A stretch of 64,000 nucleotides of DNA. It comes from Telmatactis stephensoni. Taxonomy: Eukaryota; Cnidaria; Anthozoa; Actiniaria; Isophelliidae. The stretch lies in assembly GCA_029948255.1 (NCBI GenBank), contig JALIZF010001870.1, forward strand, positions 497,001 through 561,000, in the 5' to 3' direction. Positions 26,941 through 59,270 of this stretch are shown here, in pieces; within the stretch, counting starts at the first letter, position 1; each line of letters opens with the position of its first letter. The position numbers and the translations under genes are program-made. The notes below the pieces were generated by a model. The model made no database searches, was not told where the DNA came from, and saw only the letters and a program-made list of their open reading frames with translations.

Positions 26941-26984
26941 TATGTACGGAAGCCCAGGAGGGCCACTAATGGTTTTTGTTTTTG

Positions 26985-27715
26985 TTTTTAACTTTCCGGT
27001 TTTTGTTTTTAACTTTTCAGTTTTTGTTTTTTGTTTTTTTGTTTTCGGTTTTACTTTTTGCTTTTCGGTTTTATTTTTTGCTTTTCGGTTTATATTTTTG
27101 AATTTCGGTTTTTATTTTTACATTTCACTTTTATTTTTTGCTTTTCGGTTTTTATTTTTGAATTTCGGTTTTATTTTTTGCTTTTCGGTTTTTATTTTTG
27201 AATTTTGGTTTTATTTTTTGCTTTTCGGTTTTTATTTTTACATTTCACTTTTATTTTTTGCTTTTCGGTTTTATTTTTTGCTTTTCGGTTTTATTTTTTG
27301 CTTTTCGGTTTTTATTTTTGAATTTCGGTTTTATGTTTTGCTTTTCGGTTTTTATTTTTACATTTCACTTTTATTTTTTGCTTTTTAGATTTTTATTTTT
27401 GCTTTTTGTTTTTATTTTTTGCTTTTCGGTTTTATTTTTACATTTCACTTTTATTTTTTGCTTTTTAGATTTTTATTTTTGCTTTTTGTTTTTATTTTTT
27501 GCTTTTCGGTTTTATTTTTTGCATTTTGGTTTTATTTTTTGCTTTTCGGTTTTTCTTTTTTGAAATTTGTTTTTATTTTTTGCTTTTCGGTTTTATTTTT
27601 TGCATTTTGGTTTTATTTTTTGCTTTTCGGTTTATAGTTTTGAATTTCGGTTTTATTTTTTGCTTTTCGGTTTTTATTTTTTGCTTTTATTTTTTACTTT
27701 TGAAAAAAAATCTTT
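26985..27715 (+). repeat. Minisatellite, left foldback arm (TTTTGCTTTTCGGTTTTATT)
   Basis: Roughly 20- to 30-bp units built from TTTTTGCTTTTCGG, TTTTTGAATTTCGG and TTTTTACATTTCAC variants. The Phe-rich ORFs in all frames here are translations of the array. Confidence 0.92.
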
Positions 27716-32787: not shown

Positions 32788-32823
32788 TTGTGCCTCGATT
32801 TGTCCCAAAAGCGTTGTACGTTT

Positions 32824-32841
32824 ACACACCGGCTGCCACCA
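32824..32841 (-). other. Candidate tRNA primer-binding site
   Basis: TGGTGGCAGCCGGTGTG directly abuts the 5' LTR. It starts with the TGG expected from a tRNA CCA end; the tRNA was not identified. Confidence 0.65.
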
Positions 32842-32970
32842 TGTAAAAAGTAGACAAGTTGTGGGTGAAAACAGCTCCTTTATTCCTTGTATAGCACTCA
32901 ATATTAGAATGACATTTGATATGTATGATTGCCTAATATCAAGTTGGCGTGTCACGCACAACTTGTCACA
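32842..32970 (-). repeat. 5' LTR of the gypsy element (129 bp)
   Basis: Compared by eye along its length it is identical to the copy at 28475-28603. That implies recent insertion. At 129 bp it is unusually short for the family. Confidence 0.93.
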
Positions 32971-33289
32971 TATATATGGGCCTGTATGTTGCACTTAAGT
33001 CTGTTTGTAGTCCGTAGTTTACAAGATAAACTTCAAAAACTACAGAAACGAAAGGAAGCTAGTAATAAAGAGCAGATAACAAGCAACGATTGATTTTCCT
33101 CATCCTTCTAAGCGTCCGCCATCTTTGTTGATGTCGTACCGCAGTGCATCATGGGACGGCCCAGAAGGGCCACTCAAAGAAAAATTTTTTCAAAATCAGA
33201 ATTTTTTTTTTCAAAAAAAGAAAAAAATTTCTCTATAAAACGGTTTTTTTTTTCAAAAAAGAAATATTTTTTCAAAAAAGGAATTTTTT

Positions 33290-34410
33290 TTCAAAGGTAA
33301 AAAATAAAATAAAACCAAAATGCAAAAAATAAAACCGAAAAGCAAAAAATAAAAACAAAAAGCAAAAAATAAAACCGAAAAGCAAAAAATAAAAACAAAA
33401 AGCAAAAATAAAAATCTAAAAAGCAAAAATTTAAAGTGAAATGTAAAAACAAAAACCGAAAAGCAAAAAATAAAACCAAAATGCAAAAAATAAAACCGAA
33501 AAGCAAAAAATAAAAACAAAAAGCAAAAATAAAAATCCAAAAAGCAAAAAATAAAAGTGAAATGTAAAAATAAAAACCGAAAAGCAAAAAATAAAACCAA
33601 AATTCAAAAATAAAGACTGAAAAGCAAAAAATAAAAGTGAAATGTAAAAATAAAAACCGAAAAGCAAAAAATAAAAGTGAAATGTAAAAATAAAAACCGA
33701 AAAGCAAAAAATAAAAACAAAAAGCAAAAAATAAAACCGAAAAGCAAAAAATAAAAACAAAAAGCAAAAATAAAAATCCAAAAAGCAAAAAATAAAAGTG
33801 AAATGTAAAAATAAAAACCGAAAAGCAAAAAATAAAACCAAAATTCAAAAATAAAGACTGAAAAGCAAAAAATAAAAGTGAAATGTAAAAATAAAAACCG
33901 AAAAGCAAAAAATAAAAGTGAAATGTAAAAATAAAAACCGAAAAGCAAAAAATAGAACCAAAATTCAAAAATAAAAACCGAAAGGCAAAAAATAAAAGTG
34001 AAATGTAAAAATAAAAACCGAAAAGCAAAAAATAGAACCAAAATTCAAAAATAAAGACTGAAAAGCAAAAAATAAAAGTGAAATGTAAAAATAAAAACCA
34101 AAAAGCAAAAAATAAAAGGGAAATGTAAAAATAAAAACCGAAAAGCAAAAAATAGAACCAAAATTCAAAAATAAAGACTGAAAAGCAAAAAATAAAAGTG
34201 AAATGTAAAAATAAAAACCAAAAAGCAAAAAATAAAAGTGAAATGTAAAAATAAAAACCGAAAAGCAAAAAAATAAAAGTGAAATGTAAAAATAAAAACC
34301 GAAAAGCAAAAAATAAAAACCGAAAAGCAAAAAATAAAACCGAATAGCAAAAAACAAAAAACAAAAACTGAAAAGTTAAAAACAAAAACCGAAAAGTTAA
34401 AAACAAAAAC
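33290..34410 (-). repeat. Minisatellite, right foldback arm (inverted, longer)
   Basis: The reverse complement of the left array (AAAACCGAAAAGCAAAAAAT and variants), about 400 bp longer. It shows a higher-order order of variant units (AGTGAAATGTAAAAATAAAA next to CCAAAATTCAAAAATAAAGA). Confidence 0.92.
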
Positions 34411-34449
34411 AAAAACCATTAGTGGCCCTCCTGGGCTTCCGTAGTTATG

Positions 34450-36380
34450 CTCTAAGAACATGTCGTATTTTTATCATCACGCCTTTCATATGATGCCTGA
34501 ATTACTCTCACAATCCAAAGAGCAAAATGTTATTTTACTATGATGCATTTTGACGAGATTTTAAACCCAGACACTGAGCCAGTGGTTTAGTCAGTAACGG
34601 ATGCACGCTGCTTGTGTTTGACGTCAAAACATCCCGCATAAATTCTAAAATTTCGAATTGAAATCCTGGGTAACTTTGGGTAACTTTGAGACTACAAAAA
34701 AGGGGAAGGATCGCTCTATAAGACACTATAATCAGAACCAGTTTATGTTGATCCGTTTTAAAGAAAGCGATGTTTGAATATTGGGTACTTTCTTCAGGCC
34801 CCAATGTACTTCAAGTTCGTTCAAATCTAAATTACAAACCTTTAGAAATGTCAAAATTAGCTAAATTTGTAATAATTTGAAAGCTCTTTTACCACTTCTT
34901 CTTATTCGTAAAGGAATTCATTTCTGCATCTCAATGCAACGACCCGATTAGCTCCGTTTCCAGCATAAATTTTGTACAAAACCACGTTTCAAAGGCGCAA
35001 AGCATTCTGGGATAGCCTTCACTCCTCCTCTGGGTCAACTGTGTACTTCTCAGGACAGCTGGATAATTCAGTGCCGGGAACTTCGTAGTATTGATCGGTC
35101 ATTAGAACTACTTTTTCCTCCAATAAATACCTTATTTAATTTTCCATAGAATATTACAGTAAATGTATGGCACATCCGGTTTATTTGTCCGACCAATATG
35201 TCCGACTCTAGTATTGAATAGGCATTTGCATGATGGCGTCATATACTACAACTACCAGAATGCTTTGCCCACTTTCTTTTGTAAAATAATTAGTGCCAAT
35301 TTGTTCGACTATTCTCAAAAGGGAATAAAAATCTGAATAGGAAAGAAAATTCGTAGAGCATTCTGGTAGTTGTAGTAAAATGACCGTGCAAATGGCCTAT
35401 TACAACTTAATGAGCTTAGTGACGTCACGTCCGCGCGTCGCTATTGCGAAGGTAGTGCTACACTAATATTTAACGTTCAGTGCATGGGTCTACTAGTATA
35501 AACTAGTAGTAGTAGTATAGACAGAAGCGCTTAAAAAACCGATGTAAGTAATTCATAACTAGTTTATTAGTACGGAAAAGATATTTGCAAATGTCAATTT
35601 TCTGGCATAAGTTCAGCGGTCACATGGTACTTAGTCATGCCGTGCAATGCTTAACATGCATTGCAAGATCATCCCATGCATGTCAACGGGAAAGTAGTTC
35701 CTGTAATTATCTATATTTCTAATTAGATGGCGTCAACCCAAGAATTTGCAATATTTGTGATTTCCGTCACGAGCCACAAAGTAAAGACTGAACGAAAATT
35801 GATTTCCCGTGAAAAATTTATTGTGCACAGTAGAAAAGGTACAAGAATGCTTCTCTAACTATTCATCTGCTTTTAAAACGTTATTTAGATGCTGTATCAA
35901 AAAAACAAGTCATTCTTTTAGGCAACAACAACTTACGGTCTCGAACAAAATTGCCGCATTCTGTCGTTTTCATGGAAAAAATATAAATGTCAATTTTCTG
36001 AAAAACTAACAGGATGTTGATATTGAGTAGTTCTTCAAGATGAGAGAATAAAAAATGGGGTTCACCGTTCATTTTGAAGAGATATTCATCGACAAATATT
36101 GGATCCGCAGATCATATGAACGTTACAAGCCAAGTCCATCGCCATCTTGAATACAGATGGGTTCCGTGGAAACTTTTTGTCTTTTTCTTTCTACTTTTCT
36201 GCGCGTTTTTAACCCAAATAATTATTTCACAGTTGAATGTCCATTATGTTAATTTTTCTTACAAACTTGGACAATTTCTACTACAACTAGCCATTTCTAA
36301 TAGAAAGTGAAGTGCTGCGAACAGAAAACAGCTGGTGTATCCACGTTAGCAGAACTGTTCCCCTAAAACTCACGAAAGTA
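34450..36380. other. Intergenic, no recognised gene
   Basis: Apart from the element at 35217 I see no coding or RNA feature. A frame at 36074-36310 has a hydrophobic stretch but no support as a gene. Confidence 0.5.
35217..35402. mobile_element. Inverted-repeat element, about 186 bp
   Basis: TACTACAACTACCAGAATGC (left) is mirrored by GCATTCTGGTAGTTGTAGTA (right). Outer ends AATAGGCATTTGCA / TGCAAATGGCCTATT give TIRs of about 50 bp. Confidence 0.8.
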
Positions 36381-39519: not shown

Positions 39520-41341
39520 CTAGACGCACACGTGCGTTCACTCGTGCCCCGGAAGCCCCTTTTATGACCGGCCCCGTTCGTACTCTTCCCGAGCCGTTTC
39601 ACGCATTCTTCACTTAACCGTAACATAATAAAGACCTTTTTTGACCTTTTTAAAGAATATCTGATTAGTCAATTTGTCTGTCAGCAGCTATTAGTCGACA
39701 TGCAAAATATTACCAGCGAATATACCAGTTTATTCAACTTTTTATTTTCACTATGTATCTCAATTGTTTGCTGTAAAGACTTCTACAACGGCGTTTTTCA
39801 CACAATAACAAATCGTGAATTTTTTCGTTCATGTTTCGGATGTTTTAAATAATAAAAGACGTTACGTGACCAACAAGGTCAATGGAACCTATCCGTTCCA
39901 TGCAATGGTCTGCTCTAGAATTCCGTATTAAAATTCAGTACAAAAACCTCTCAAGATCTCTTGAATGCTTGAATGAGGAATACAATTGACTTGCTTCTAC
40001 GTATGTTCGTTTAGCAACATGTAGGATGAGAAATTCGTAGATTCACAGCTCATAGGAAATACTCTTTATCCATGTTTATCGCGAGGGTTCTCTTTCAAGT
40101 ACTCCATTTAGAGTTCGATATTTGGTCAAAGTATTGGAGATGAAGCTCAAACTAACAGCCCATTCTGAAGTTCTTATAAGTATATAGGTATACCTGGAGT
40201 TAAAAGCTCCAAATTACATTGTGCTACTGCAGGAAAAGCCTGTCTCTGAAAACTATTTTCTTTGTAGTCGGCCATCTTGCATTCCTAAAGTTCCTCGCTG
40301 GCGTTCACTACGGAGGTGATGAAGGAAGGGCATTGTTTTTTACGTTCTTAACCAATCAGGGGTGTAACACGTGACCGATTGCGCAAGAATGCTGCATTCT
40401 CGAGACGAAAAGAGGAAAAAAAAAAAAACTAGACGCACACGTGCGTTCACTCGTGCCCCGGAAGCCCCCTTTTAGGAGAGGCTTCAATGACCAGCCCCGT
40501 TCGTACTCTTCCCCGAGCCGTTTCACGCATTCTTCACTTAACCGTAACATAATAAAGACCTTTTTTGACCTTTTTAAAGAATATCTGATTTTAGTCAATT
40601 TGGCGGTCAGCAGCTATTAGTCGACATGCAAAATATTACCAGCGAATATACCAGTTTACTCAACTTTTTATTTCACTATGTGTCTCAATTGTTTGCTGTA
40701 AAGACTTCTACAACGGCGTTTTTAACACAATAACAAATCGTGAATTTTTTCGTTCATGTTTCGGATGTTTTAAACAATAAAAGACGTTACGTGACCAACA
40801 AGGTCAATGGAACCTATCCGTTCCATGCAATGGTCTGCTTTAGAATTCCGTATTAAAATTCAGTACAAAAACCTCTCAAGATCTCTTGAATGCTTGAATG
40901 AGGAATACAATTGACTTGCTTCTACGTATGTTCGTTTAGCAACATGTAGGATGAGAAATTCGTAGATTCACAGCTCATAGGAAATACTCAGTTTATCCAT
41001 GTTTATCGCGAGGGTTCTCTTTCAAGTACTCCATTTAGAGTTCGATATTTGGTCAAAGTATTGGAGATGAAGCTCAAACTAACAGCCCATTCTGAAGCTC
41101 TTATAAGTATAAAGGTATACCTGGAGTTAAAAGCTCCAAATTACATTGTGCTACTGCAGGAAAAGCCCGTCTCTGAAAGCTATTTTCTTTGTAGTCGGCC
41201 ATCTTGCATTCCTAAAGTTCCTCGCTGGCGTTCACTACGGAGGTGATGAATGAAGGGCATTGTTTCTTACGTTCTTAACCAATCAGGAGTGCACACGTCA
41301 CCGATTGCGCAAGAATGCTGCATTCTCGAGACGAAAAGAGG

Positions 41342-41371
<30 letters not shown>
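39520..41371 (+). repeat. Direct dimer of a 909-bp unit, each ending in an A-tract
   Basis: Unit 1 is 39520-40428 and unit 2 is 40429-41371. Both start CTAGACGCACACGTGCGTTC and end CGAGACGAAAAGAGG followed by poly-A (13 A in the first, about 30 in the second). They differ by scattered substitutions and a 19-bp indel near the start. Read on the minus strand, the A-tract end looks promoter-like, with CTGATTGGTT (CCAAT-type) and AAGATGGCCGAC. It could be a retroposed dimer; no ORF or tRNA-like head was recognised. Confidence 0.85.
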
Positions 41372-42960: not shown

Positions 42961-43940
42961 TCTCAAAATCGTGTTTAGTTTTGTATTGCTAGATTCTCTT
43001 TACCTGCAAATTGTTTTTCAGTCAAATTGGGTCAAATGCACGCGTCATCACGCAATGGCGATCGAGCGGGCGATGAAGAAATTTTTACAAACTTTTCTCT
43101 TCATCTCCACCAAAAATGCGTCATTGTAATTTTCGGTCATTTTATTCACTGATATCATCTAAAATGATGTTTTATGTTTGCTGCTTAATTTAGAATTGAG
43201 TTTCGGCAGGTTATTGTGATTTTGAAGAGTTAAGCCACTTCGATGCAGTCCTCGATGTCACCAACGTAACGCTGATTTGACGTTGAGACGCCGGCGAAAG
43301 AAACACAGTGAATTAATACACAGTAAACGGAATCAAATGCATGCTTGGTAACTTTATTAGCATGCATGAATTCATGAATTATTATCGTCGTGTAAAGAGT
43401 ATATATGACAACCTTTTGTGCACAATGTTCCGTGTAGGTCTTCGTCGATCCATTTGATTTTTGTATCGAAAGAAAAGTTGAAAATTGCAGAACCGAGTCC
43501 AGTACCTCTCCCCCTTCAGGGAGAAACTCGGAGGGAATCCTCCCCTACTTGGAAAACAACGGACGTTTTGTTTTTTTCTATTTTCTAAATAATCGATTTT
43601 GAAAAACTTACCGGTATTTCTAAAAGTACAGAGAAATTCCAATATTTTTTCTTGGTCAAATCGATCAACACGAGGTATAGAATTAAATATACACGACTGA
43701 AATAAAAAATAATAATTTGATTTCAACTTCAATTTTCAATTTTTCATTCGATACGAAAATCAAATGGACGAAAAAGACCCGGACCAGAAATCTAGTTATA
43801 AAGAAATAAAGTGAAGTGACTGAACTCATGAGCATCGTCACCACTAAAAAAAGCAAAATTCAAGCTTATAACAGTTAGAATAATACCCAGCTGGTATTTT
43901 CACTAACAGCTCAAAAGCTGGCTGAGTAGTTATTCGTGAC

Positions 43941-44894
43941 TTATGACTTGGAGACTTTATGCGTACAATGTTTCAGCAAATGCTTAGTGAAGCAATCATG
44001 ACGACAATGGTCATGTTTATCCTCTATGGCCTTAGCCACACATTTACTTTTAAGGATCCTAATTTTAATACGGCAACGATGTTTGCAGATATTTCTATTT
44101 TTAAGACTGTGAAAGTTTCGATTACAACGGCCACTGCAGATACATCCAAATATATAGAAATGTTTGAAACACTGTCTTACTGAATGTTCCATGCAATTAT
44201 AATAGCAAAAATGCCAACAATTTTCCCTGCCTTTGATTTTGATGTCTCTATGACCAGGCATAGAGCATGAATCACGTGGTTTGTCTCTATTGTAATAGCA
44301 GGTCCTTCTGAGTTTAACCTTACTGATCGTGTATTCTTTGACACACATAATGGTGTTGTTATCTATATTTGTCCTGATCTCCGATTTAGCACATGGTTCT
44401 GTGGAGAAGAAGATTGAAAAAATATAAATGAGTTACTGGTAACAAACAATAATAAAATGAGAAAATAAGAGTTTTGACTAGCTTGAAAGCATTCATATAG
44501 CTGGAGATCGTGGATGTTCTTTTATGTTCTTCTGAATCACATGAATTACTATAGTAACCGAAATAGAGCAATTATTTAGTACCTGTGCGATTTTCTTTTT
44601 CTTCTCTCTTGATTTCGACTTTCTCTTCATTTTGGACGTCATTTTGTTCTTCTGAAAAAATATATAAGAATACGTCGATAAATAATAAATGAACTGCATG
44701 TATCATTTTTGAGAGATTAGAAAAAGGTTCTTACCTGGAGAGGCCTCATCTTGATCGAAAAAAGCGTCACCATGAGGAAAATCGTTGGGCAACTCGTCTT
44801 CGAGACCTGGATCTTGAATGTCTTCTTCAATTGGAGCAGCTCCAATGCAGGCAATGAATCCAAAGAGAAACAGTAGAGCGAGAGTGTACTTCAT
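43941..44894 (-). CDS. Secreted cysteine-rich precursor, 3 exons (paralogue 1)
   Basis: Exons 44735-44894, 44583-44651 and 43941-44398. GT/AG sites are present at both introns, phases agree, and the total is 228 codons plus stop. Exon 1 encodes a signal peptide of about 20 residues (ending IGAA) and an acidic propeptide. Exon 2 encodes 23 mainly acidic and basic residues. Exon 3 encodes about 152 residues, strongly basic (Lys/Arg/His-rich), with 17 cysteines, among them three C-x3-C pairs and one C-x1-C-x3-C cluster. The mature part is not a ShK domain and I recognise no family. Secretion is well supported; a role as venom component, antimicrobial or matrix protein is open. Exon 1 is nearly identical to that of the ShK gene at 53 kb. 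Confidence 0.75.
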
Positions 44895-44949
44895 AATTGC
44901 AGTTCCTTAGGCAAGATCTTGTGACTAACTTTGCAGAGAAACCTTCCCT

Positions 44950-44957
44950 CTTTTATG
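44950..44957 (-). promoter_or_regulatory. TATA-like box of peptide gene 1
   Basis: ATAAAAG on the minus strand, about 56 bp before the start codon, conserved in position in the second gene (53290). Confidence 0.5.
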
Positions 44958-46169
44958 TCATCCTATACGTGTTGACAAATTCCGCAGTAGCCTCTCGTCC
45001 ATAAAGGTCGCCAAGGGTCATGTCTTGGAATGAGGTCTAATTACGTCGATGGGGTAACGGTACCGTTTGCGCTTTTGTGTCTGAATTCAAAAGGCATGCG
45101 TCTTAATTGTTCTCTTTTTGTTGAATAATGAAAATTGCTCTAGAACAATAGATCGTATATTTTCTGCAACGTTTCGCCCACATATTAGACTATTAAAGAA
45201 TCGAGCTTTATTGAACTTATTTGTACATCTTTCAGTACATGTAAATGATTTTCCGAAATTACTTACTATATAAAACGTCCTCTTACTCCTTAAATAATTA
45301 CTTGTTTGCTATACTTCAATTTTGATTTCCAAAATATCCTACAAGTATGCGTAGTTACCATACTCGCGGTACCGCTGAATTTCCTTACTGATGTAAAATC
45401 GCGGGCTCACAATAAGGTCAAACATGCAGGGAATGTAATATTACTACTATACGAGGTATTATCGTACCGATCCTTATTTTCTAAATGAAGTTACATGATA
45501 TGCTAGAAGCATTTTTTGCTGATATTTAGAATTTGAGGTTTCAATATTATATTACATGGGTATATTTAGAATGACCTTGAAAACAAGACCACCAGAGGGA
45601 CTCTCCCGCGAAGTGCTCAACGTGTACCTGGAATCCTATCAGACCTAAATTCAATTTGTAGTCATGCAAAGAAAAACAATCCAATTACATTATTGCGTCG
45701 AATTAAATTTCTCCAAGAATTGGGTTTTCAATTCAAAGAAAATATTGTGATCATTGAACCTCAGTCAGTTCTAGATGATTCAGTTATGACATTATTATAT
45801 TTTTCAACTGAAAAGATAGGAATCACCAAGCGTGCGCATCAATTGCAAGGCTAGAGTTTACCATATTAGTAAATTGTTATGAGTTTTATTCAATTTATAC
45901 TTGGTATTATACTTCAATAATAAATACCGCATAGTAAGTTGATTGCACGCCGGAATGCTAACAAAATCACGTGGTGTTTTAAAAATAAAATGATCACCAT
46001 GACAACCCACAAAATACTCATTTACCTACATCTAGAGTACACTACGCAAAAAAATTATGATGTACATGATAACTTTCAAAGTTTGAGCCATTGGAAAATG
46101 TTTTATTGAAGCAGTTTTCTTTAGAAGAGTTCATCGGCGTTTTTCTTTTCGTAATGAGAATTTTCGAGA

Positions 46170-46440
46170 TGATGACGTCATCCAAGATGGCTGACAAATG
46201 CTGATTTACAGCTTCACAATCTCCTTAAAACATTAAATCAATGAAAGAGTTCGTAGATATATTTGAACATTGTAGTGAATATAAATAAACATTCATTTTT
46301 TCATTAAGTTGTTTTCAAGATATCAAATATAAACAAGTTTTGCACGAGTCACTCGTGCGAAACTTGTTTTTATTTGATATCTTGAAATCAGTAAACAACT
46401 ACTCAGCATGGCATACTGAATTTTGCTGATTCATGCCTCC
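46170..46440 (+). repeat. ~300-bp repeat C (CRE + YY1-like), first of five in copy 1
   Basis: Core GATGACGTCATCCAAGATGG; the 3' end carries the CAGCATG segment. Further units in copy 1 start near 48470, 48790, 49680 and 49990. Confidence 0.75.
46315..46386. repeat. 72-bp palindrome present only in duplication copy 1
   Basis: AAACAAGTTTTGCACGAGT meets its inverse at 46349, flanked by CAAGATATCAAATA / TATTTGATATCTTG. The corresponding place in copy 2 (about 54836) reads through without the inverted half. Confidence 0.8.
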
Positions 46441-48071
46441 AGTAATAAAAACAATCAGTCATATATCGTGGGAAAATTAGGAGTTGAGTGGCCGTTGCAT
46501 AATATGATATTTGCTGACAAAGGAATGTTGACACTCGTACCATCGTAAAACAAATTAACAAGCTCATGAAATTAACACTGTTCAACAATTGCATGTAGCT
46601 GCATGAGCAACATCGTTCAACAATTGTTGGTAACAAATGTAATTGATCCATGTATCATGATGTATTCAATGTAGAAACAAGCTTTTCAACATGCTGAACG
46701 ATGTTGCAGAAAATAGAGAAATGTTGTATTTCCGAATCAAGTTTCCGCTTGTTGAACTGTGTACAGAGTACAATCATACATTGGTTGCAAACAATCAAGT
46801 GTTGAGCCGCGTGGTCATATTAATTCGCCTTGCTAAATATATATCATGCATTTCATGGTAGCGTGCTTTCTATATCGTAAAAAATCTCTGAACATTGTTG
46901 ACAAAGTAGAAATATTAAAACAATTGGAGCTCTCGTGGATTTGTTTTTATAAAAAAATTGAATACTAATTCGCATCATCGATTAAACAACTCTATATCTA
47001 CCTACATAGCTAAATAAAACTAGGAGCCTGACGAAATAGGAATAATGAAATCTTTCATAAAAGGAACTCCTATTTGTAGGTTTTTGTAAATAATATATAT
47101 TCAAGACTTGGATGCGGCCGAAGTGTTTTAATAGAGTTAATATATTAACTCTGGTTTTAACTTCCACCTCCATTCAATTCATTTTATTTACACTGTATAC
47201 GTAAAGTTTAATTTAGTTACACGTTTTACAATTTTACTAGTTACAATATAATAAAGAATCTATATCAATAAATTGCCGATGTTCATTTATCTGATTTATT
47301 ATCAAATTCCAATTCCATCGAATTATATTATAGTATCTCGCTGGGTTACACAGTAGGAGATCTGTTTGTTATTACTGAACTCGGAAATAACTACGTTAAG
47401 ATATTACAATTCAACCTAACTTGGACCAGAATTACGTAATTTCGGTGAAAAAAATGTTTTGAGGTTGTACCATTAATACCAATGTGCGAGTAATAACACA
47501 CACACGTTGTAGAGTAGTTAACCTGTAAAATAGAAACACCAGATTTCTGGTCCGATCAATAGGGTTCTGGTTCATCCACGCTACAAAAGAGACATACTGA
47601 AACGGCACTTTGATTTGGTCACTCTTTATTCTATAAGATATTATAGCAAAACTCGAAGAGTTTTGAAAGTGTTTCAATACAGTTGCCATGGCAATGATTT
47701 TATTTTTAAAATTCGCACCATGTGAGAATGTCAACATCGATCAGTCATCACGACCGGTGGGATCATCCCACGTCTGGTGTCCGCGGTGTTCCTTAGTGAA
47801 GTGTGGACCTCATATGAAGTCTTTATCTTTTCTAATAGTTTGGCCCAGCAAGTGTTCTTTTTATTGTTCACGTTCGATTGCGTAACCACTATAAGCTAAC
47901 ATCGCCTGATTTATAATGAAATTAACTACAAAGTAATTATCACGAATTTAAGTTAAAAAACTGCAAGGGCTATAATATTAAAAGGAATCAACGAATGCAT
48001 TTGTTCGATTTTAATTTTTCGATGAATAAAAATTTAAAATACAGCTTATTTACGTGACCTAAAGCTGATGT

Positions 48072-48299
48072 TACACGAGACGACTTGCAACGACGATTTT
48101 TTCACGCAAAGCCAAGTTGATACCGCGTGAAGTATATACCACACAGAACGATTTTTGGCCTAATTTCTTTTCTTCGGCAGCATATTGCAAGCTTTTGATT
48201 TAAAGGAAAATACCTGCAACTCAGAATGACGAGTTCGACCCAAGTTGTACCGGCATTGCACGAAAAATCAACGTTGCAAATCGACTCGTGTCAAATGTG
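48072..48299. mobile_element. Inverted-repeat element (CGAGACGACTTGCAACG)
   Basis: ACACGAGACGACTTGCAACG is mirrored by CGTTGCAAATCGACTCGTGT. The copy in the second duplicate (56936-57165) has lost the outer left end. Confidence 0.7.
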
Positions 48300-48469
48300 A
48301 CTCATGACAAATTGACTCGTGTTTCATGTGATTTCTACGTAGCGTACCACCAGATTAAATTTTTCGTCTAAATAAACTTGCAAGAAACAATCCGATTGTC
48401 CTTAACAAATTCGAAACGCCGGTTTTAGGATTTGTATAATGTTTTAACAGTCCAAGCTTTCAACGAATA

Positions 48470-50165
48470 GAAATTTTACGAAAATATTAAAAACAAGCCC
48501 AAATGAACAGATAATTCATAGTTTATGACATCATCCAAGATGGCCGCCAAGTATAAAGTTTTAAAAGTTCTCAAATAAACGTTCTCGAGTTAAAGAAAGA
48601 AGACACATAAGATCGAAATGGTGTATTTTTGACCATTAATTGTTTTCTAGGTACAGATGAAAACCCTTTTTGCATGAGTAGTCAAGAATGAACTGCTCAG
48701 CATGATATATACTGCACGTCTGGTCAATATTGTTTTTCCCTAAGTATAACAATTTCATTTTATCTAAAGTATAATAAAAAGTTGAACAGTCGCTTCTTAT
48801 TTTTAAAAACTAAAGCGAATGAACAGAGAATTTATGGTTTAATGACGTCATCCAAGATGGCCGCCAAGTATATAGCTAGAAAAGTTAAAAGTTAAAAGAA
48901 AAGTTAAAAGAAAAGTTTAAAAGTTCTTATCTCATGTCGATGAAAGAGGGCACGTTTGAATGGTATATTTTTATCAATAAATTGTTTTTAAAATACAGAA
49001 GAAAAACAAGTTGTGCGCGAGTAGTCAAGAAATAAGTGCCCAGCATGGTACTTACTGCACGTCTTTAGTTTTATTCAGCGAATTAATAAAAAGTTGAATA
49101 TAGTCGGCTATTAAAATGATATTCATCGTAGAACTAATTCTCTTACCACTGGCATAATACATCGTATCAATGTCATAAGCTAAATTTATACAGCTGAATT
49201 GATACAGCCGATCGATTCTCCTTTAAAAATGGTTTGAGAGGGATAAAGGATTGGGGAAAATATCGAAAAGTTGATTGGGTAAGTATCTGAACTATTTCCT
49301 CCGGAATTAAAGTACGTTTATATCCTAATAGTATTACCTCAACAACAAAGTAAAAGTACTAAAACCTTCTAGATTGAACCCCCGCGGCTTTGCCTTTAGA
49401 AAATATAGTCAACAAAATTTGACAACCCACTGATTCCGAAAATTAGATTAAGTTCACTGTTCCATTTGGGCCTCGTTGAATTTTTTTACGTGAGGGATTT
49501 TTTATTTAAAATCATTCAACTTTCGAATAAATTGCATTTTTTAAATTTTGGCAATTTGAATGGCTTCCCGGTGCAAAGCCGTGCACTAATCAAAGTCAAT
49601 AGTAATAAAAACGACATCATTTGTATTGATTTTTGCAGAATTGTATAATCAATATAGGCCTAGACAAAGTATCCTAGAATTTTACGAATATATTAAATAC
49701 TAGCTCAAATGAACAAAGATTTCAGTTTATGACGTCATTCCAGATGGCCGTCAAGTATAGAGTTTTAAAAGTTCTCAAATAAAAGTTTTCAAGTCAAAGA
49801 AAAAGGATTCTTACGATCAAAATAGTGTATTTTTGCCCATTAGTTGTTTTCTAGGTAAAGATGAAAACTCTTTTTGCACGGGTAGTCAAGAATGAACTGC
49901 TCAGCATGATATATACTGCACGTCTGGTCAATATTGTTATTCCCAAAGTATAGCAATTTCATTTTATCTAAAGAATAATAAAAAGTTGAACAATCGCTTA
50001 TTATTCTTAAAAACTAACGCAAATGAACAGAGTATTTATGGTTTAATGACGTCATCCAAGATGGCCGCCAAGTATAGTGCTTTAAGTTCTCATCTCGATG
50101 AAAAAGGGCACGTTTGAAATAATTTATTTTTATATGTTGTTTTTAAGATATACAAGAAAAACAAT
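48470..50165 (+). repeat. Repeat C units 2-5 in duplication copy 1
   Basis: Four units with TGACGTCATCCAAGATGGCC-type cores (48526, 48843, 49729, 50047) followed by GCCAAGTATA. Most also carry GAACTGCTCAGCATGATATA and TACTGCACGTCTGGTCA. Confidence 0.85.
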
Positions 50166-50329
50166 TAAGTTTTGTACGAAATAGATATTGACTCGGTGTA
50201 ATTTGACAATGGCATAAAGAGATGACATAGTACATATGCAATAATGATTAACAAATTCATAATTCCGGTACACCAAAAACAAGCCACAGTTTGAGTTATA
50301 TGACATAATAACTCTTGCCGAATAAAACA

Positions 50330-52310
50330 TCTTGCCTGATTAAACAGATAAACACAAAAAACAGAGTTAAAAAACTGACTAACAACTTACCCAAACTGAT
50401 ACGTCTAACGCCAGAAGTCGGGGAGAAATAAGTTTCGACGACGATCCGAACATTTCTCTTGTTACTTACAAACCCCATGGCATAGTATCTACGACTTCCA
50501 CAGGACGCCGGTAGATACAAGACTCATTCTATTCTTCACTTGCCTCTACATCATCAAAAGGAACATAGTCTTTTTACATTACCTTAATGCCTTGAACATA
50601 ACAACAAAGGCGAAGCCAAATCGACACTAAAATATCGCCCCATGTTTCCATTCTTAAGCTTCCTATTTCATTCCGAACGGCTTCGTCAGTACTACGTTTA
50701 TCGAGAATTGATCAAACGTTTCCCCTACAGATATATTTATGAACTAAACTGAACAGTTTGGTCTCAAAACAAATATTTTATAATTATAACCACAAACCCT
50801 ATATTTGATTATTAATAATCGACTTAAACACCCTCGGACCGGCGCACGTAGTTCGCCTATCTTTCGGCTTGACACTTCGGTTCTACTTCGGAGATTTCCG
50901 AATTACACACGCACGCACGCACCCTTGAAGCCCATGACATAGCATAAAGCCAGTAACCACAAAAAAGCCAAGCCGTAGACGTGCGCACTGATTTCTTGCC
51001 GAGTTATAAATTAAAGAATCAGAACTGTCTGAGGCGACATGAACAGTAAAATTTCGGTGACGCGAATCTCTTGCCTACAGCTACAACTAGAATTTCTACC
51101 TCAAAATAGTCTTGAATTTTATAAATCTGAAGTCATCCGAGGGCAGCTTCTAGTAGAATTCGAACTGATGTCCAGCTCTGAAATAGCGCTGACCGCGAGT
51201 CGCTCCATGTCGCTTGATATCAGCCAGATTGGTTCAATTTTCCCTCTCCTTCTTAAAATTCTCCTCCCCCACCCTCCCCTCCCTTAACCGCCCGCCTCCC
51301 CCACCCTCCACTCCCTTCCTCGCCCTCCTGCCCACACCTCCCCTCCCTTCAACTCCCGCATGTTTGTTTATACTATTTATGCGATATCCTCGGACGGACA
51401 GACAGTTTCAAAGTCTCAACCATATAGGGTATTATTGTAAGGTCCCGTATGTTTACAGATTTGCGAGTGAGTGACACAATAGGTTACTACTTTATGTATG
51501 GCACCATTCTAGTTAGACAATAGATAGATTGAATAGTGCCATTTCATGTTGTCATACACGAAGTAGTTAGCTGATCATTTGCATATTTTGACCCCGCACT
51601 ATAACTCGTGGATTTGCAATCCACGAGTTAAATATGGCTTTAAACTTACCTAAAATCGATCCAATGGCAATTCTGAGTCCTAACTACAGCCCAAGCAAGC
51701 AATAACACTACGTGAAACTGACGTTGCTGGAGACCTTGAGCCTTCGGTGTTCTAAAAGAGCAGCATTCTCCATAGCAACCCCAAATATGGAGTCATAAAA
51801 ATTTACGGACCATATTGTACAGAAAATCGTTCAAAAACGCTAAAAGTCCCCGGACGGGAAGGAGTTAAGTGGGCTTTGTGAGCTCTCCTTGAAGTACTAA
51901 GTCTCGTTAACTCCTCCATCCTTGTCACGGCACCAAAAATGTGTAGAATTGAAATTACTACAGCGTCGGTTCGATTCGATTTATTGGAAGAGTACCTTCG
52001 TGTTACAGAATCATTGCGTTGTGTAATACTAGGAACGTAATACTATACCTATAAACTATGCAAAATGATTGACAGTTGCATTTCATTAATAAAGCTAAAC
52101 TAACAAGTAAAGGTTGCCGGTAAACGTTCTCAACGCATAATAATAGTTTGACCGGAAATGACTCGTGTAGAATAAACAAACTAATGATACTAAAATGAAT
52201 ACAATAAAATTGTCATATAAATGTTCTTCCAGTGTTCATAAACTGTTTCAGACATCGCCTGCTAGGATGATCCACCATGTAAACACCCCTCTTACTTGCC
52301 TAGCTTTGCC
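50330..52310. other. Unique interval between the duplicates
   Basis: A C-rich tract (51262-51358), a 29-bp hairpin TAACTCGTGGATT (51601-51629) and an LTR fragment (listed). A frame at 50391-50520 ends in a good donor but lacks an ATG-led start and was not accepted. Confidence 0.5.
51905..52260 (-). mobile_element. Possible solo/partial LTR with BEL-like primer site
   Basis: On the minus strand ...ATTTCAATTCTACA is followed after a few bases by TGGTGCCGTGACAAGGATGG, a typical primer-binding context of BEL/Pao or gypsy elements. The LTR would extend up to about 52260. No internal coding region follows. Confidence 0.35.
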
Positions 52311-53234
52311 TCAGCATAATCCGCAAGTTTTCTGGCAGTTTGCTCGAACGTATCTATGATAGGGGCAAAATATGGTCCAGAAAGGGCAGCGGTAATCCTT
52401 ATTCACACAAGCTGAAAGAAAAAATAAACAAGATAAGATAAGTACAAGCTAAAGTAACTAGTTAATATACATATTAAAGGCAAAGGCTAATGTTTAACTT
52501 CGAAGTCGCGGGGAGTGGTTGCTCAGATCTCACGAGCCAGAGGCTCATGTATCAAGCGTTCGAAGGTGCGCCCTCTACCCCCTCTCTCCATCAGTGCTCT
52601 GTTTTAAGGGTATTTAATCGGAAAGGAAAGAAGTCGAAACAAGAATGTGAAGTCAACCACCACCACCACCACCACCACCACCACCACCACCACCACCTAT
52701 ATAAAATGGAAAACATTTAGGCATCAGCAGTGTATGTGTTCCCGAGATCTAGAGTAGAGTGCAAACACAAACAATATGCGATAACACTTTCGGGCCCTTT
52801 AGGAACAGTCAAAAGTCAGGAAAAGAAGTGTTACAGTGTGACTACTTCGGGCAATATATATTGCTGGAAACTGCACTTTTTGTAGGGTGCCATGGATAAC
52901 ATTGTGCTTTAATTAGTGATGCCGGTCGCGGTCCCACAAAAGAGGGATAGCCCTAATATACGTTGGATTTCTTTATCAAGTGGATAAAAATATTTCTGTC
53001 TAAATAAAATTACCAGACATCTTCTTGTTGATCCAGTCAATGAAATTTTTTAGATATTAGAAAAAGGTTCTTACCTGGAGAGGCCTCATCTTGATCGAAA
53101 AAAGCGTCATCATTAGGAAAATCGTTAGGCAACTCGTCTGCAAGATCTGGATCTTGAGTGTCCTCTTCAATTGGAGCAGCTCCAATGAAGGCAATGAATC
53201 CAAAGAGAAACAGTAGAGCGAGAGTATACTTCAT
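52311..53234 (-). CDS. Secreted ShK-domain peptide precursor, 2 exons (paralogue 2)
   Basis: Exons 53075-53234 and 52311-52411, joined in phase 1; 86 residues plus stop. Exon 1: signal peptide of about 20 residues, then an acidic propeptide ending in EASP. Exon 2: a 33-residue mature region with six cysteines spaced C-x6-C-x6-C-x9-C-x3-C-x2-C and ending in the last cysteine. That is the ShK fold pattern of cnidarian potassium-channel-type peptides. The Lys-Tyr pair used by channel-blocking members appears as Arg-Tyr, and no dibasic cleavage site precedes the mature part. Activity therefore cannot be assumed: ShK domains also occur in enzymes and non-toxic secreted proteins. The exon is too short for ORF-based calling. 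Confidence 0.82.
52659..52697 (+). repeat. (CAC)n microsatellite in the ShK gene intron
   Basis: 13 CAC units; the poly-His frame is a by-product. Confidence 0.95.
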
Positions 53235-53289
53235 GATTGCAGTTCCTTAGGCAAGCTCTTGTGACTAAGTTTGCAGAGAAACACTCCCT

Positions 53290-53297
53290 CTTTTATG
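53290..53297 (-). promoter_or_regulatory. TATA-like box of the ShK peptide gene
   Basis: Same ATAAAAG motif and spacing as in paralogue 1; the surrounding 130 bp are nearly identical. Confidence 0.5.
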
Positions 53298-53378
53298 TCA
53301 TCCTATACGTGTTGACAAATTCCACAGTAGCCTCTCGTCCATAAAGGTCGCCAAGGGCCATGTCTTGGAATGAGGTCT

Positions 53379-53580
53379 AATTACTCTTGAAAACCCGTTG
53401 GTGGGGCAGAACAGGCAGCAGACTTGTTTGGGGTTTCCAAGACTGATGTTTAATATCTACTCACTGATGTTAATTACACTCTAATTGATACTAATTACAT
53501 TCCCTCTTTGATGACATCATAATTAGAGATTACACAGGCAACCCATTTACATTTTAATATAATATATTTACGACAATTAC
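53379..53580. mobile_element. 190-bp insertion in the ShK gene 5' flank, TSD AATTAC
   Basis: Copy 1 reads GTCTAATTACGTCG uninterrupted (45035-45050). Here AATTAC occurs at 53379-53384 and again at 53575-53580 with 190 bp between. No inverted ends recognised. It sits about 150 bp upstream of the start codon. Confidence 0.88.
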
Positions 53581-54689
53581 GTCGGTTGGGTAATGGTACC
53601 GTTTGCGCTTTTGTGTCTGAATTCAAAAGACATGCGGTTAATTGTTCTCTTTTTGTTGAATAATAAAAATTGCTCTAATAGAATAGATTGTATATTTTCT
53701 GCGACGTTTAGCCCAGATATTATTAAATAATCGAACTTTATTGAGCTTGTTTGTACATCTAGATCTTTTACATGTAAATGATTTTCCTGAAATTACTTAC
53801 TATATAAAACATCCTCTTACTCCTTAAATAATTACTTGTTTGCTATACTTCAATTTTGATTTCAAAAATATCCTAAAATTATGCGTAGTTACCATACTCG
53901 CGGTACAGCTGAATTTCCTTACTGGTGTAAAATCGCGGGCTCACAATAAGGTCAAACATGCAGGGAATGTAATATTACTACTACGAGGTATCCGACCCTT
54001 ATTTTCTAAATGAAGTTGCATTATATGCTAGAAGTATTTTTTTGCTGATATTTAGAATTTGAGGTTTCAATATTATATTACATGGGTATATTTAGAATGA
54101 CCTTGACAACAAGACCACCATAGGGACTCTCCCGCGAAGTGCTCAACGTGTATCTGGAATTCTATCAGACTTAAATTAAATTTGAAGTCATTCAAAGAAA
54201 AACAAACCAATTACATTATTGCGTCGAATTGAATTTCTCCAAGAATTGAATTGGGTTTTCAAAGAAAACATTGTGATAACTGAGCCTCAGTCAGTTCTAG
54301 ATGATTTTTGACATTAATATTTTTTTCAACTGAAAAGATAGGAATCACCATGCGCGCGCAATCAAGGCTAGAGTTTACCATATTAGTAAATTGTTATGAG
54401 TTTTATTCAATTTATACTTGATATTATACTTCAATAATAAATACCACATAGTAAGTTGATTGCACGTCGGAATGCTAACAAAATCACGTGGTGTTTTAAA
54501 AATAAAATGATCACCATGACAACCCACAAAACACTCATTTACCTACATCTAGAGTACACTACGCAAAAAAAATTATGATGTACATGATAACTTTCAAAGT
54601 TTGAGCCATTGGAAAATGTTTTAGTGAAGCAGTGTTCTTTAGAAGAATTCATCGGCGTTTTTCTTTTCGTAATGAGAATTTTCGAGACG

Positions 54690-57600
54690 ATGACGTCATC
54701 CAAGATGGCTGACAAATGCTGATTTGCAGCTTCAAAATCTCCTTAAAACATAAAATCAATGAAAGAGTTCGTAGATATATTTGAACATTGCAGTGAATAT
54801 ATATATATATACATTCATTTTTTCATGAAGTTGTTTTGAAGATATCCGAAATAAAAACAAGTTTTGCACGGGTAACCAGTAATCAACTACTCAGCATGGC
54901 ATACTGAATTTTGCTGATTCATGCCTCCAGTAATTGTATGACTAATAAAAACAATCAGTCATATATCGTGGGAAAATTAGGAGTTGAGTGGCCGTTGCAT
55001 AATATGATATTTGCTGACAAAGGAATGTTGACACTCGTACCATCGTAAACAAATTAACAAGCTCATGAAATTAACACTGTTCAACAATTGCATGTAGCTG
55101 CATGAGCAACATCGTTCAACAATTGTTGGTAACAAATGTAATTGATCCATGTATCATGATGTATTCAATGTAGAAACAAGCTTTTCAATTAACATGCTGA
55201 ACGATGTTGCAGAAAATAGAGACATGTATTTTCGAATCAAGTTGCCGCTTCTTGAACTGTGTACAGAGTTGACTGCTGATTCGCCGCTTTTCAACAACAT
55301 TCATACATTGGTTACAAACAATTGTTGAACGATGTTCAACAAGTATTGAGCCGCGCATCAGTTCAAATAATGATAATACTACCGTTGTTAGCTTTGAATT
55401 CAGAACTTTAAGCATTTGTTTGATAGATATATAAATATTTTTGAACACTGAGCTTTAATCATATTAATTTGCCTTGCTAACAGTTCATATATTTCATGGT
55501 AGCATGCTCTCTAAATCGTAAAAAAACTCTGGACCGTTGTTGACAAAGTAGAAATATTAAAACAATTGGAGCTCTCGTGGATTTGTTTTTATTAAAAATT
55601 GAATGATAATTCGCATCATCGATTAAACAATCTCTATATCTACCTAGATAGTTAAACAAAACTAGGAGCCTGACGAATAGGAAATGAATAATAAAATCTT
55701 TCACAAAAGGAACTCCTATTTGTAGGTTTTTGATATAGCTAATTCAATTAACGTTGTCGCTGAAAAAAGCCTAAAGCCTAAAGCTTTGAGAGCGGAACAT
55801 GACACCGTGACATCATTACAATAAAAAACTCACTGTATGCTTGCAAATTCTACAACTTGGACACATATTCCTCAATTTCTCAGATAGCCTACGGGGAAGT
55901 TTCAGTACACAAAAGATATTTGAAAGGCTTTAGCCTTTAGGCTTTTTTCAACGACAACGTTAATTGGAATAGCTATATATTCAAGACTTGGATGGCCGAA
56001 GTGTTTTAACAGAGTTAATAGTTAATAGTTAATATTAGCTCTGGTTTTAACTTTCACCTCCATTTCATTTTATTTACATTGTATATGTAAAATTTAATTT
56101 ACACGTTTTACAATTTTACTAGTGATAATACAATAAAGAATCTATATCAATAAATTGCCTATGTTCATTTATCTGACCAATTCCATCGAATTATATTATA
56201 GTATGTCGCTGGGTTACACAGTAGGAGATCAGTTTGTTATTACTGAACTCGGAAATAACTACGTTAATTAAGAGTTACAATTCAACCTAAGTTGGACCAG
56301 AATTACGTAATTTCGGCGAAAAAAATGTTTTGAGGTTGTACCATGAATACCAATATGCGAGTAATAACACACACGCGTCGTAGAGCAACAAACCCGTGAA
56401 ATAGAAAAAAAAACCAGATTTCTGGTCCGACCAATAGGGTTCTGGTCCATCCACGACGCAACCCTCCCCCCTCCATAGTCACCAAAGAGACATACTGAAA
56501 TGGTAACTTTTTATTCTATAAGATATTATAGCAAAACTCGAAGAGTTTTGAAAGTGTTTCAATACAGTTGCCATGGCAATGATTTTATTTTTAAAATTCG
56601 CACCATGTGAGAATGTCAACATTCAGTCGTCGCGACTGTGTGATCATCCCACGTCTGGTGCCATGTCTGCTGTGTTCATTAGTGATGTGTAGACCTCATA
56701 TGAAGTCTTTATCTTTTCTAATAAACTGGCCCAGCAAGTTTTCTTTTTATTGTTCACGTTCGATTGCGTAACCACTATAAGCTAACATCGCCTGATTTAT
56801 AATGAAATTAATTACAAAGTAATTATCACGAATTTAAGTTAAAAAACTGCAAGGGCTATAATATTAAAAAGGAATCAACGAATGTATTTGTTCGATTGTT
56901 ATTTTTCGATGACTAAAAATTTAAAATACACTTATTCACGAGACGACTTGCAACGACGATTTTTCACGCAAAGCTAAGTTGATACCGTGTGAAGTATATA
57001 CCACACAGAACGATTTTTGGCCTAATTTCTTTTCTTTGGCAGCACATTGCAAGCTTTTGATTTAAAGTCAAAAACCTGCAACTCAAAATGACGAGTTCGA
57101 CCCAAGTTGTACCGGCATTGCACGAAAAATCAACGTTGCAAATCGACTCGTGTCAAATGTGACTCATGACAAATTGACTCGTGTTTCATGTGATTTCTAC
57201 GTAGCGTACCACCAGATTAAATTTTTCGTCTAAATAAACTTGCAAGAAACAATCTGATTGTCCTTAACAAATTCGAAACGCCGGTTTTAGGATTTGTATA
57301 ATGTTTTAACAGTCCAAGCTTTCAACGAATAGAAATTTTACGAAAATATTAAAAACAAGCCCAAATGAACAGATAATTCATAGTTTATGACATCATCCAA
57401 GATGGCCGCCAAGTATAAAGTTTTAAAAGTTCTCAAATAAACGTTCTCGAGTTAAAGAAAGAAGACACATAAGATCGAAATGGTGTATTTTTGACCATTA
57501 ATTGTTTTCTAGGTACAGATGAAAACCCTTTTTGCATGAGTAGTCAAGAATGAACTGCTCAGCATGATATATACTGCACGTCTGGTCAGTATTGTTTTTC

Positions 57601-59270
57601 CCTAAGTATAACAATTTCATTTTATCTAAAGTATAATAAAAAGTTGAACAGTCGCTTCTTATTTTTAAAAACTAAAGCGAATGAACAGAGAATTTATGGT
57701 TTAATGACGTCATCCAAGATGGCCGCCAAGTATATACGTTTAAATTAAAAGTTCTTATCTCCAGTTGATGAAAGAGGGCACGTTTGAATGGTATATTTTT
57801 ATCCATAAATTGTTTTTAAGATACATGCAAAAGAAAAACAAGTTTCGCGCGAGTAGTCAAGAAATGAGTGCCCAGCATGGTACTTACTGCACGTCTTTAG
57901 TTTCATTCAGCGAATTAATAAAAAGTTGAATATGGCTAGTCGGCTATTAAAATGATATTCATCGTAGAACTAATTCTCTTACCACTGGCATAATACATCG
58001 TATCAATGTCATAAGCTAAATTTATACAGCTGAATTGATACAACCGATCGCTTCTCCATTAAAAATGGTTTGAGAGGGATAAAGGATTGGGGAAAATATC
58101 AAAAAGTTGATTGGGTAAGTATCTGAACTATTTCCTCCGGAATTAAAGTATGTTTATATCCTAATAGTATTACCTCAACAACAAAGTAAAAGTACTAAAA
58201 CCTTCTTGATTGAACCCCCGCGGCTTTGCCTTTAGAAAATATAGTCAACAAAATTTGACAACCCACTGCATGATTCCGAAAACTAGATTAAGTTCACTGT
58301 TCCATTTGGGCCTCGTTGAATTTTTTTACGCGAGGGATTTTTATATTTCAAATCATTCAACTTTCAAATAAATTTTTTATTTTTTTTTATTTTGGCAAAA
58401 TATAAATGCAACAATGACGTAGTAGATACATATGAATTTTTAAAATTTGCTTTTTGTCAACATTCTGTCGTGGTCGTTTGATCAATCTCACTGTTGTCGG
58501 TGTTCATTAGTGAAGTGTACACCTCATGTGAAGTCATTATTATACAATTCTCAAAAGAACGCACGTAATATGCACAAGAACGCGAGAAATATGAGACCGT
58601 ATTAGGTTAGGAACATTTGAATGGCTTCCCGGTGCAAAGCCGTGCACTAATCAAAGTCAAAAGTAATAAAAACATCATTTGATTTTTGCAGAATTGTGTA
58701 ATAAATATAGCCCTAGATCTTAAACGACTAAGTATCCTAGAATTTTACGAATATATTAAATACAAACTCAAATGAACAAAGATTTCATAATTTATGACGT
58801 CATTCAAGTTGGCCGCCAAGTATAGAGTTTTAATAGCTCTCAAATAAAAGTTTTCAAGCAAAAGAAAAAATAGTGTATTTTTGCCCATTAGTTGTTTTCT
58901 TGGTACAGATGAAAAGTCTTTTTGCATGAGTAGTCAAGAATGAACTGCTCAGCATGATATATACTGCACGTCTGGTCAATATTGTTATTCCCAAAGTATA
59001 GCAATTTCATTTTATCTAAAGAATATTAAAAAGGTGAACAATCGCTTATTATTCTTAAAAACTAACGCAAATGAACAGAGTATCTATGGTTTAATGACTC
59101 ATCCAAGATGGCCGCCAAGTATATGCTTTAAGTTCTCATCTCGATGAAAAAGGGCACGTTTGAAATGGTTTATTTTTATACGTTGTTTTTAAGATATACA
59201 AGAGAAACAATTAAGTTTTGCACGAGTAGTCAATAAGCAAGCTAGCGCTCAGCATGGTAGATACTTGGTC
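54690..59270 (+). repeat. Repeat C units in duplication copy 2 (five)
   Basis: CRE/YY1-like cores near 54690, 57388, 57703, 58796 and 59094. The unit at 58796 has CAAGTTGGCCGCC and that at 59094 has lost two bases of the CRE (TGACTCA). Confidence 0.85.
55736..55975. mobile_element. 240-bp TIR element present only in duplication copy 2
   Basis: TAGCTAATTCAATTAACGTT and its near-inverse at 55950-55975 bound the element; subterminal GAAAAAAGCCTAAAG is also inverted. Copy 1 at about 47085 is the empty site. Confidence 0.87.

Follow-up and report, generated by a model that had tools for sequence, protein, structure and literature searches.

A secretory leader exon duplicated ahead of different cysteine-rich mature exons in the sea anemone Telmatactis stephensoni

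Gene pair in the window

We analysed a window of 64,000 nucleotides (nt) from the 483.5-Mb genome of the sea anemone Telmatactis stephensoni (positions 497001-561000 of contig C76, JALIZF010001870.1). It contains, on its minus strand, two genes for predicted secreted peptides, here called gene A and gene B, which start with nearly the same leader exon and continue into different Cys-rich mature exons. Both genes and their relatives elsewhere in the genome are exon models read from the DNA, with predicted splice forms, and the signal peptides of exon 1 were judged by eye. The features of the pair are as follows (R/K, arginine or lysine; D/E, aspartate or glutamate; KR, Lys-Arg).

44735..44894, minus strand: gene A exon 1, signal peptide and start of the acidic propeptide, phase-1 donor (160 coding nt)
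44583..44651, minus strand: gene A exon 2 (predicted), acidic, symmetric (1-1), 23 codons with a KR site (acceptor with 12/15 pyrimidines, donor GT)
43941..44398, minus strand: gene A exon 3, mature part with 17 Cys, 34 R/K and the stop
44946..44956, minus strand: TATA-like ATAAAAGAGGG, 62 nt ahead of the ATG of gene A
53075..53234, minus strand: gene B exon 1, signal peptide and acidic propeptide, phase-1 donor (160 coding nt)
52311..52411, minus strand: gene B exon 2, ShK domain with six Cys and a stop right behind the last Cys (Pfam PF01549; phase-1 acceptor with 14/15 pyrimidines)
53286..53296, minus strand: TATA-like ATAAAAGAGGG, 62 nt ahead of the ATG of gene B

An initial annotation of this DNA had reported two almost identical first exons with a phase-1 donor. 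Its coordinates proved exact, the donor is identical in the two genes (CCAG/GTAAG, phase 1), and 47 of the 53 encoded residues agree (89%). The mature exon of gene B is the six-Cys ShK domain proposed at that time, scoring 34.6 bits against PF01549 (cutoff 20.9, E 2.8e-8). Its best sequence match in the PDB was aurelin (2lg4, E 0.027), which we take to be a jellyfish antimicrobial peptide.

The mature exon of gene A packs 17 Cys into 151 amino acids (aa), and the probability of at least 17 Cys is 2e-7 given the base composition of the exon. It had been assigned to no known family, and our searches agreed: no Pfam family appeared at E<=1, the ShK profile included, the PDB sequence search gave no match, and none of the 10 candidates scored from a protein database search was a match. 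A protein search of its own genome (3 candidates scored) found this exon in one place only. The fold prediction that had been recommended for the 17-Cys domain was of no help, as AlphaFold2 gave the exon alone an unusable model, with a predicted local distance difference test (pLDDT) score of 51.9 and a predicted template-modelling (pTM) score of 0.35. An Rfam scan of the window returned nothing at gathering scores.

Duplicated block and break in intron 1

The shared first exons belong to a longer duplicated block, whose two copies have these limits.

44705..50179, minus strand: copy A, with 30 nt of intron 1, exon 1, promoter and upstream DNA
53045..59225, minus strand: copy B

The initial annotation described a shared promoter and exon 1. 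Both are shared, but the block is not limited to them; it reaches about 5.5 kb in A and about 6.2 kb in B, and almost the whole of it precedes exon 1. BLAST aligned A 44705-45044 with B 53045-53384 at 94.4% identity (E 2e-151). Farther upstream, to about 50179 and 59225, the identity was about 88-90% with insertions and gaps.

On the other side the similarity stopped abruptly inside intron 1, as had been noticed before, about 30 nt past the donor. Counted from the ATG in 15-nt windows, A and B agreed at 13-15 of 15 positions up to +180, which is 20 nt inside intron 1, at 10 of 15 from +180 to +195, and at 1-7 of 15 beyond. BLAST found no match at E<=1e-3 between A 43001-44704 and B 50501-53044. 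The end of the homology is a step, not a decay. A segment of 5.5-6.2 kb ending 30 nt inside intron 1 has been duplicated, and copy B is joined to an ShK exon. The recombination event itself and the direction of the join are what we infer. The earlier proposal, in which a leader cassette was duplicated and coupled to new mature exons, is supported by the sharp break and by a second tandem pair described below.

Genome-wide leader family

A genome search with exon 1 had been suggested as a way of finding further members. Exon 1 of gene B gave 28 DNA matches, all of which we examined, so that A and B belong to a genome-wide family; such counts from a DNA search are lower bounds. Several contigs resemble alternative haplotypes (loci L013/L014 are 98% and L022/L023 99% identical), and the distinct loci are therefore fewer than the matches. 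We built 22 gene models, from 21 of the 28 places and one extra copy (L032b). The places without a model were L014, which is 98% identical to L013 and shares its mature exon; L015 and L016, with no donor found and little downstream DNA in their own loci; and L023, L027, L028 and L029, where no mature exon was picked in the sequence at hand. Two more exon-1 copies, in L030 and L031, and L035 were also left unused for models.

The 22 models share one layout: a leader exon, none to three acidic exons, and a single Cys-rich, mostly cationic terminal exon with the stop. Acidic symmetric exons were present in 16 models, and a TATA-like box lay 55-70 nt ahead of the ATG in 25 of 29 exon-1 copies. Because the models had been built in phase 1 only, we ran a control in which any of the three phases was allowed. 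The best exon-1 donor was in phase 1 in 21 of 21 cases (a tie in L017; L033, which lacks an ATG, was left out). Ranked by pyrimidine tract, the top acceptor ahead of the first Cys fell in phase 1 for 21 of the 22 models; L032a, L026 and L032b had ties, and L032b is the one listed as phase 0. Scanned in all phases, the gene strand held 22 acidic symmetric exons of class 1-1 and none of class 0-0 or 2-2. The acidic-exon scan found 23 in 25.3 kb of gene-strand introns from 21 genes versus 0 on the reverse strand; among the controls, 128 kb of window strands, gene A included, held 5, and other loci held 3 in 70.8 kb. The DNA around exon 2 of gene A resembled the intron region of L017 that holds an acidic exon (z 5.7 against shuffles), and those of L009 and L021a at z 4.0.

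Among the 13 exon-1 pairs with differences, the ratio of nonsynonymous to synonymous divergence (dN/dS) ranged from 0.09 to 0.92. A search of the leader against the protein database returned three short frames (47, 55 and 93 aa), none with a mature exon. The two longer ones read into the intron, and the shortest ends one codon beyond the donor site; all three therefore resemble genomic sequence and carry no splice evidence. A literature search over titles and abstract starts, with most subscription journals outside it, found no description of this leader family.

Intron 1 of gene B contains a dispersed repeat of about 117 bp (52560-52654), which also occurs in L013/L014 and, reversed, in L033. 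An apparent intron homology between gene B and L013 (z 13.1) was this repeat and was discarded.

Second tandem pair and probable origin of the ShK exon

L021a and L021b form a second tandem pair, 3.9 kb apart. Their homology (77%) runs from the promoter to the end of the acidic exon and stops there; L021a ends in a ShK-like exon of 38 aa and L021b in a 12-Cys cationic exon of 77 aa. We took a homologous leader, a non-homologous mature exon and a phase-compatible junction together as the mark of leader-exon shuffling, and all three were found in A/B and in L021a/L021b. L011 and L012 share 87% identity over the 0.9 kb that ends at the donor of L011, and the similarity goes no farther; this pair is less decisive because each gene has a cationic mature exon.

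In the exon-1 tree A and B were sisters (support 100/98), and L021a grouped with L021b and L033 (100/99). A ShK label on B and L021a required two changes on this tree, and 0 of 200 bootstrap trees needed only one. The nature of the L021a exon weighs against reading this as repeated exchange, since the exon is ShK-like solely by its end pattern and by sub-threshold matches. It scored 10.9 bits with Pfam ShK (cutoff 20.9, E 0.75), its PDB matches were weak although all of ShK type (5 chains, E 0.12-0.42), and its Cys spacing is 8-9-8-3-2 as against 6-6-9-3-2 in B.

The ShK exon of gene B matched 22 genome places at E<=1, its own included. Eleven of the 21 others were fetched as loci and 10 were read (L043 was left out). 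All 10 exons had the spacing 6-6-9-3-2, a phase-1 acceptor and 14-18 of 32 residues identical to B; in nine, the stop came directly behind the last Cys. The distinct exons number fewer than 10, because the exons are identical within L037/L038, within L039/L040 and within L045/L046. The leader was absent from the DNA upstream of these 10 exons (1.5 kb for eight, 4.0 kb for two; best match E 0.09), and one of the ShK loci (on contig C262) had a candidate leader of different sequence with a phase-1 donor. Judged by these resemblances, the ShK exon of B belongs to a separate set of phase-1 ShK exons. Because A has a family-typical acidic exon and the ShK exon of B belongs to that set, B is the likelier chimera; B would be the new combination and A the family-typical gene.

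Diversity, charge and possible processing signals of the mature exons

The mature exons behind this leader include ShK, 8-Cys, 10-Cys, 12-Cys, 17-Cys, repeat-type and other kinds. Most of them are poor in D/E and rich in R/K and Cys. The extremes are L010 (212 aa, 33 Cys, 88 R/K and one D/E) and L012 (232 aa, 40 Cys, 99 R/K and one D/E), both with long internal repeats. In a Pfam scan of the mature exons of A, B and 18 of the 20 others (L017 and L022 were left out), B alone passed the cutoff.

The mature exons of A and B had been called unrelated, a description that need not hold for the whole family. Scored pairwise against shuffles, the exons fell into 12 groups at z>=6, with A and B each alone; the best partners of A were L013 and L009 (z 2.9), and that of B was L021a (z 4.1). 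Some exons of different kinds were nevertheless linked, at z 5.8-7.7. The eight-Cys (C8) group joined L009/L013 through L013-L018 (z 7.6), and L010 was linked to L012 (z 5.8). Part of the mature-exon variety may thus reflect divergence among distant relatives, which counts against exchange as its source.

Candidate signals of peptide processing were common. A C-terminal G, GK or GR closed 11 of the 22 mature exons, compared with 7.9% expected (P 2e-7 if the genes were independent, which paralogs are not), and 11 of 22 had a basic pair within the first 14 residues, in L018 beyond the first Cys. Acidic and basic charge were correlated across the genes, with a Spearman coefficient of 0.57 (p 0.0065, n 21, L033 left out) or 0.56 with L033 included. 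Representatives chosen by hand gave 0.62 (a set of 13) and 0.80 (a set of 12), and the coefficient was 0.45 (p 0.055) after removal of the two largest genes, L010 and L012. As paralogs are not independent, this matching of acid and base is suggestive only.

The gene pair itself departs from this picture in ways that weigh against a cationic, processed product. Gene B, with 5 R/K and 1 D/E in its mature exon, is only weakly cationic and lacks a dibasic site between the pro-part and the ShK domain, and the mature parts of both A and B lack the C-terminal Gly. The mature exon of A, with 34 R/K and 13 D/E, is milder in charge than most of the family.

The long repeats of L010 and L012, with their size and their Cys and R/K content, would also suit cross-linked proteins, that is, cationic Cys-rich partners in an adhesive, a cuticle or a skeletal matrix instead of antimicrobials. 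Adhesion, besides antimicrobial activity, is raised for Cys-rich secreted proteins of Clytia and of coral larvae in passages of PMC12225738. The early basic pairs and terminal Gly in half of the mature exons, and the signs of positive selection described below, are more usual for small bioactive peptides, and we regard a structural role as improbable.

Signs of selection on the eight-Cys subfamily

We compared L018, L020, L022 and L024 of the C8 subfamily in six pairs, which share rows; the Fisher values are uncorrected for six tests. In all six, nonsynonymous differences (pN) exceeded synonymous ones (pS) in the mature exon. The one-sided Fisher value was 0.0075 for L020/L022 (pN 0.199, pS 0.040) and 0.0054 for L020/L024 (pN 0.247, pS 0.061), beside a 3' flank with 2% divergence. 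All eight Cys were unchanged, and the mature exons had 15-25% nonsynonymous divergence beside 3' flanks that diverged by 1-4%. These substitution counts give signs of diversifying selection in this one subfamily of mature exons, with significance reached in 2 of the 6 pairs. In L017/L018, where L017 is a fifth C8 gene, the mature-exon dN/dS was 0.75.

Several results weigh against selection. The other four pairs were singly non-significant (0.05-0.28). Of the six pairs, a single one could be aligned well over the adjoining upstream intron (8.9% divergence), against 47-57% in the rest. L031a/L032a had no excess (pN 0.218, pS 0.227). Because the synonymous differences (0.04-0.15) also exceed those of the 3' flanks, local hypermutation or flank conversion may act in C8. 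The AlphaFold2 model of the subfamily (5 rows) reached a pLDDT of 74.7 and a pTM of 0.28, and Foldseek found nothing for it in the PDB at E<=0.001 (best 1.3).

The contrast between these mature exons and their flanks would also be expected if no exon had ever been exchanged and a single ancestral mature exon had diverged, through indels and repeat growth, too fast to look related. L009 and L013, which are alike at the acceptor and at the 3' end and not in the middle, fit such a history, as do the links L013-L018 and L010-L012. For A and B it is already unlikely, as their break falls within intron 1 rather than at an exon boundary and has DNA of 94% identity to one side of it, and the exon of B is an ShK domain with its own set of relatives. 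We give this explanation very little weight overall.

Proposed mechanism

Damicornin and AmAMP1 are ShK-related antimicrobial peptides of corals. From the predicted genes, we suggest that leader-exon shuffling feeds a repertoire of disulfide-rich secreted peptides, most likely antimicrobial and built like damicornin precursors; we put the probability of this reading at roughly two in three. The DNA itself carries a shared promoter and leader, phase-compatible exons, and a segregation of acidic and basic residues between exons. The family would consist of interchangeable phase-1 exons. Each gene would have a leader (TATA-like promoter, signal peptide and the first part of the acidic propeptide), zero to three symmetric acidic exons, and a terminal exon for a mature peptide that is rich in disulfides and usually strongly cationic. 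With the junctions in phase 1, the reading frame survives when a break within intron 1 brings the leader before another phase-1 terminal exon. The acidic part would probably keep the cationic part inert until dibasic cleavage. Secretion, charge neutralisation, dibasic cleavage and amidation are the steps that we infer, and the products would most likely serve defence in the epithelium or mucus, as antimicrobial peptides or in another way.

The same modular genes could instead supply the stinging cells, with B as a ShK-type channel blocker and the cationic exons as other venom components. ShK-like domains are reported in cnidarian venom components in passages of PMC12225738. The PDB matches of L021a are of ShK type, and diversifying selection fits venom as well as immunity. 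The best PDB match of B speaks weakly against venom, aurelin being presumably antimicrobial. The acidic pro-part, the high R/K content and the C-terminal Gly in half of the family fit precursors of the damicornin type (PMC4306955), which is also a weak point against it. The damicornin-like segments and the aurelin match of B lead us to favour defence with modest confidence, and we consider a venom role rather unlikely.

A wider version of leader-exon shuffling can be offered tentatively. The family could be a combinatorial peptide factory in an early-branching animal, in which segmental duplication dispersed the leader and the acidic "neutraliser" exons, and these repeatedly took up disulfide-rich exons of unrelated kinds, ShK included, with acidity tracking the positive charge of the cargo. 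If so, leader capture could be watched in progress. Because young paralogs retain the duplicated leader DNA, the intron-1 breakpoint and a family to which the new mature exon belongs, the process of exon shuffling can be dated and tested. The family also provides a set of extremely Arg- and Cys-rich predicted peptides, mostly without a Pfam family, which bears on immunity or venom.

Other features of the window

On the minus strand, a 993-aa frame at 6868-9849 has an IPT/TIG domain and ankyrin repeats and resembles a CAMTA-type transcription activator. A 1405-aa frame at 28777-32994, also on the minus strand, has reverse transcriptase, RNase H and integrase domains and is a retroelement polyprotein. 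It is flanked by long Phe/Leu-rich repetitive frames at 26852-27563 (plus strand) and 33253-34470 (minus strand). A 294-aa frame at 24729-25613 (minus strand) had a methyltransferase match below the cutoff (PF13489, 23.5 bits versus 27). A tandem duplication of about 0.93 kb with 98-100% identity lies at 40000-41354.

Comparison with known systems

The comparisons that follow refer to passages of the cited papers. The damicornin precursor has a signal peptide, an acidic proregion, a dibasic site, a cationic six-Cys peptide and a Gly amidation signal (PMC4306955). As described there, it resembles the leader family in the signal peptide and the acidic pro-part, here divided between exon 1 and the acidic exons. 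Its dibasic site precedes the mature part; here half of the mature exons have an early basic pair, A has its KR in exon 2, and B has none. A C-terminal Gly that could act as an amidation signal is present in 11 of the 22 mature exons, though not in A or B. Damicornin is a six-Cys peptide, whereas one leader family here serves ShK, 8-, 10-, 12- and 17-Cys and repeat-type exons.

The frog preprodermaseptin superfamily likewise has a signal peptide, an acidic propiece with KR, a conserved prepro region and a C-terminal Gly as amide donor (PMC3742671). The present family differs in its cnidarian host, its disulfide-rich mature exons and its extra acidic exons. The mussel CRP-I peptides also have a conserved signal and propeptide, and their last exon encodes a highly variable Cys-rich mature part that is under positive selection, but they keep one cysteine array, while the arrays differ here (PMC10138031). 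The authors of that study did not find exon shuffling a plausible source of the CRP-I repeats (PMC10138031). Mammalian REST (semenogelin/PI3) genes likewise place a separate signal-peptide exon before the major coding exon, and composite REST genes join the 5' part of one gene to the coding part of another (PMC7556508). Their proteins and function are different, and acidic exons are not mentioned in those passages of PMC7556508.

Conserved leaders with variable mature parts are already known, from frogs and mussels, and leader shuffling has been proposed for scorpion venoms. Scorpion venom genes have a phase-1 intron at the end of the signal peptide, and exon shuffling has been proposed for them (PMC5308243). 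They are like the leader family in this phase-1 intron after a secretory leader and in their unrelated mature parts. The scorpion case rests on the shared intron phase (PMC5308243), whereas the Telmatactis stephensoni genome still displays the copied leader DNA together with its intron-1 breakpoint.

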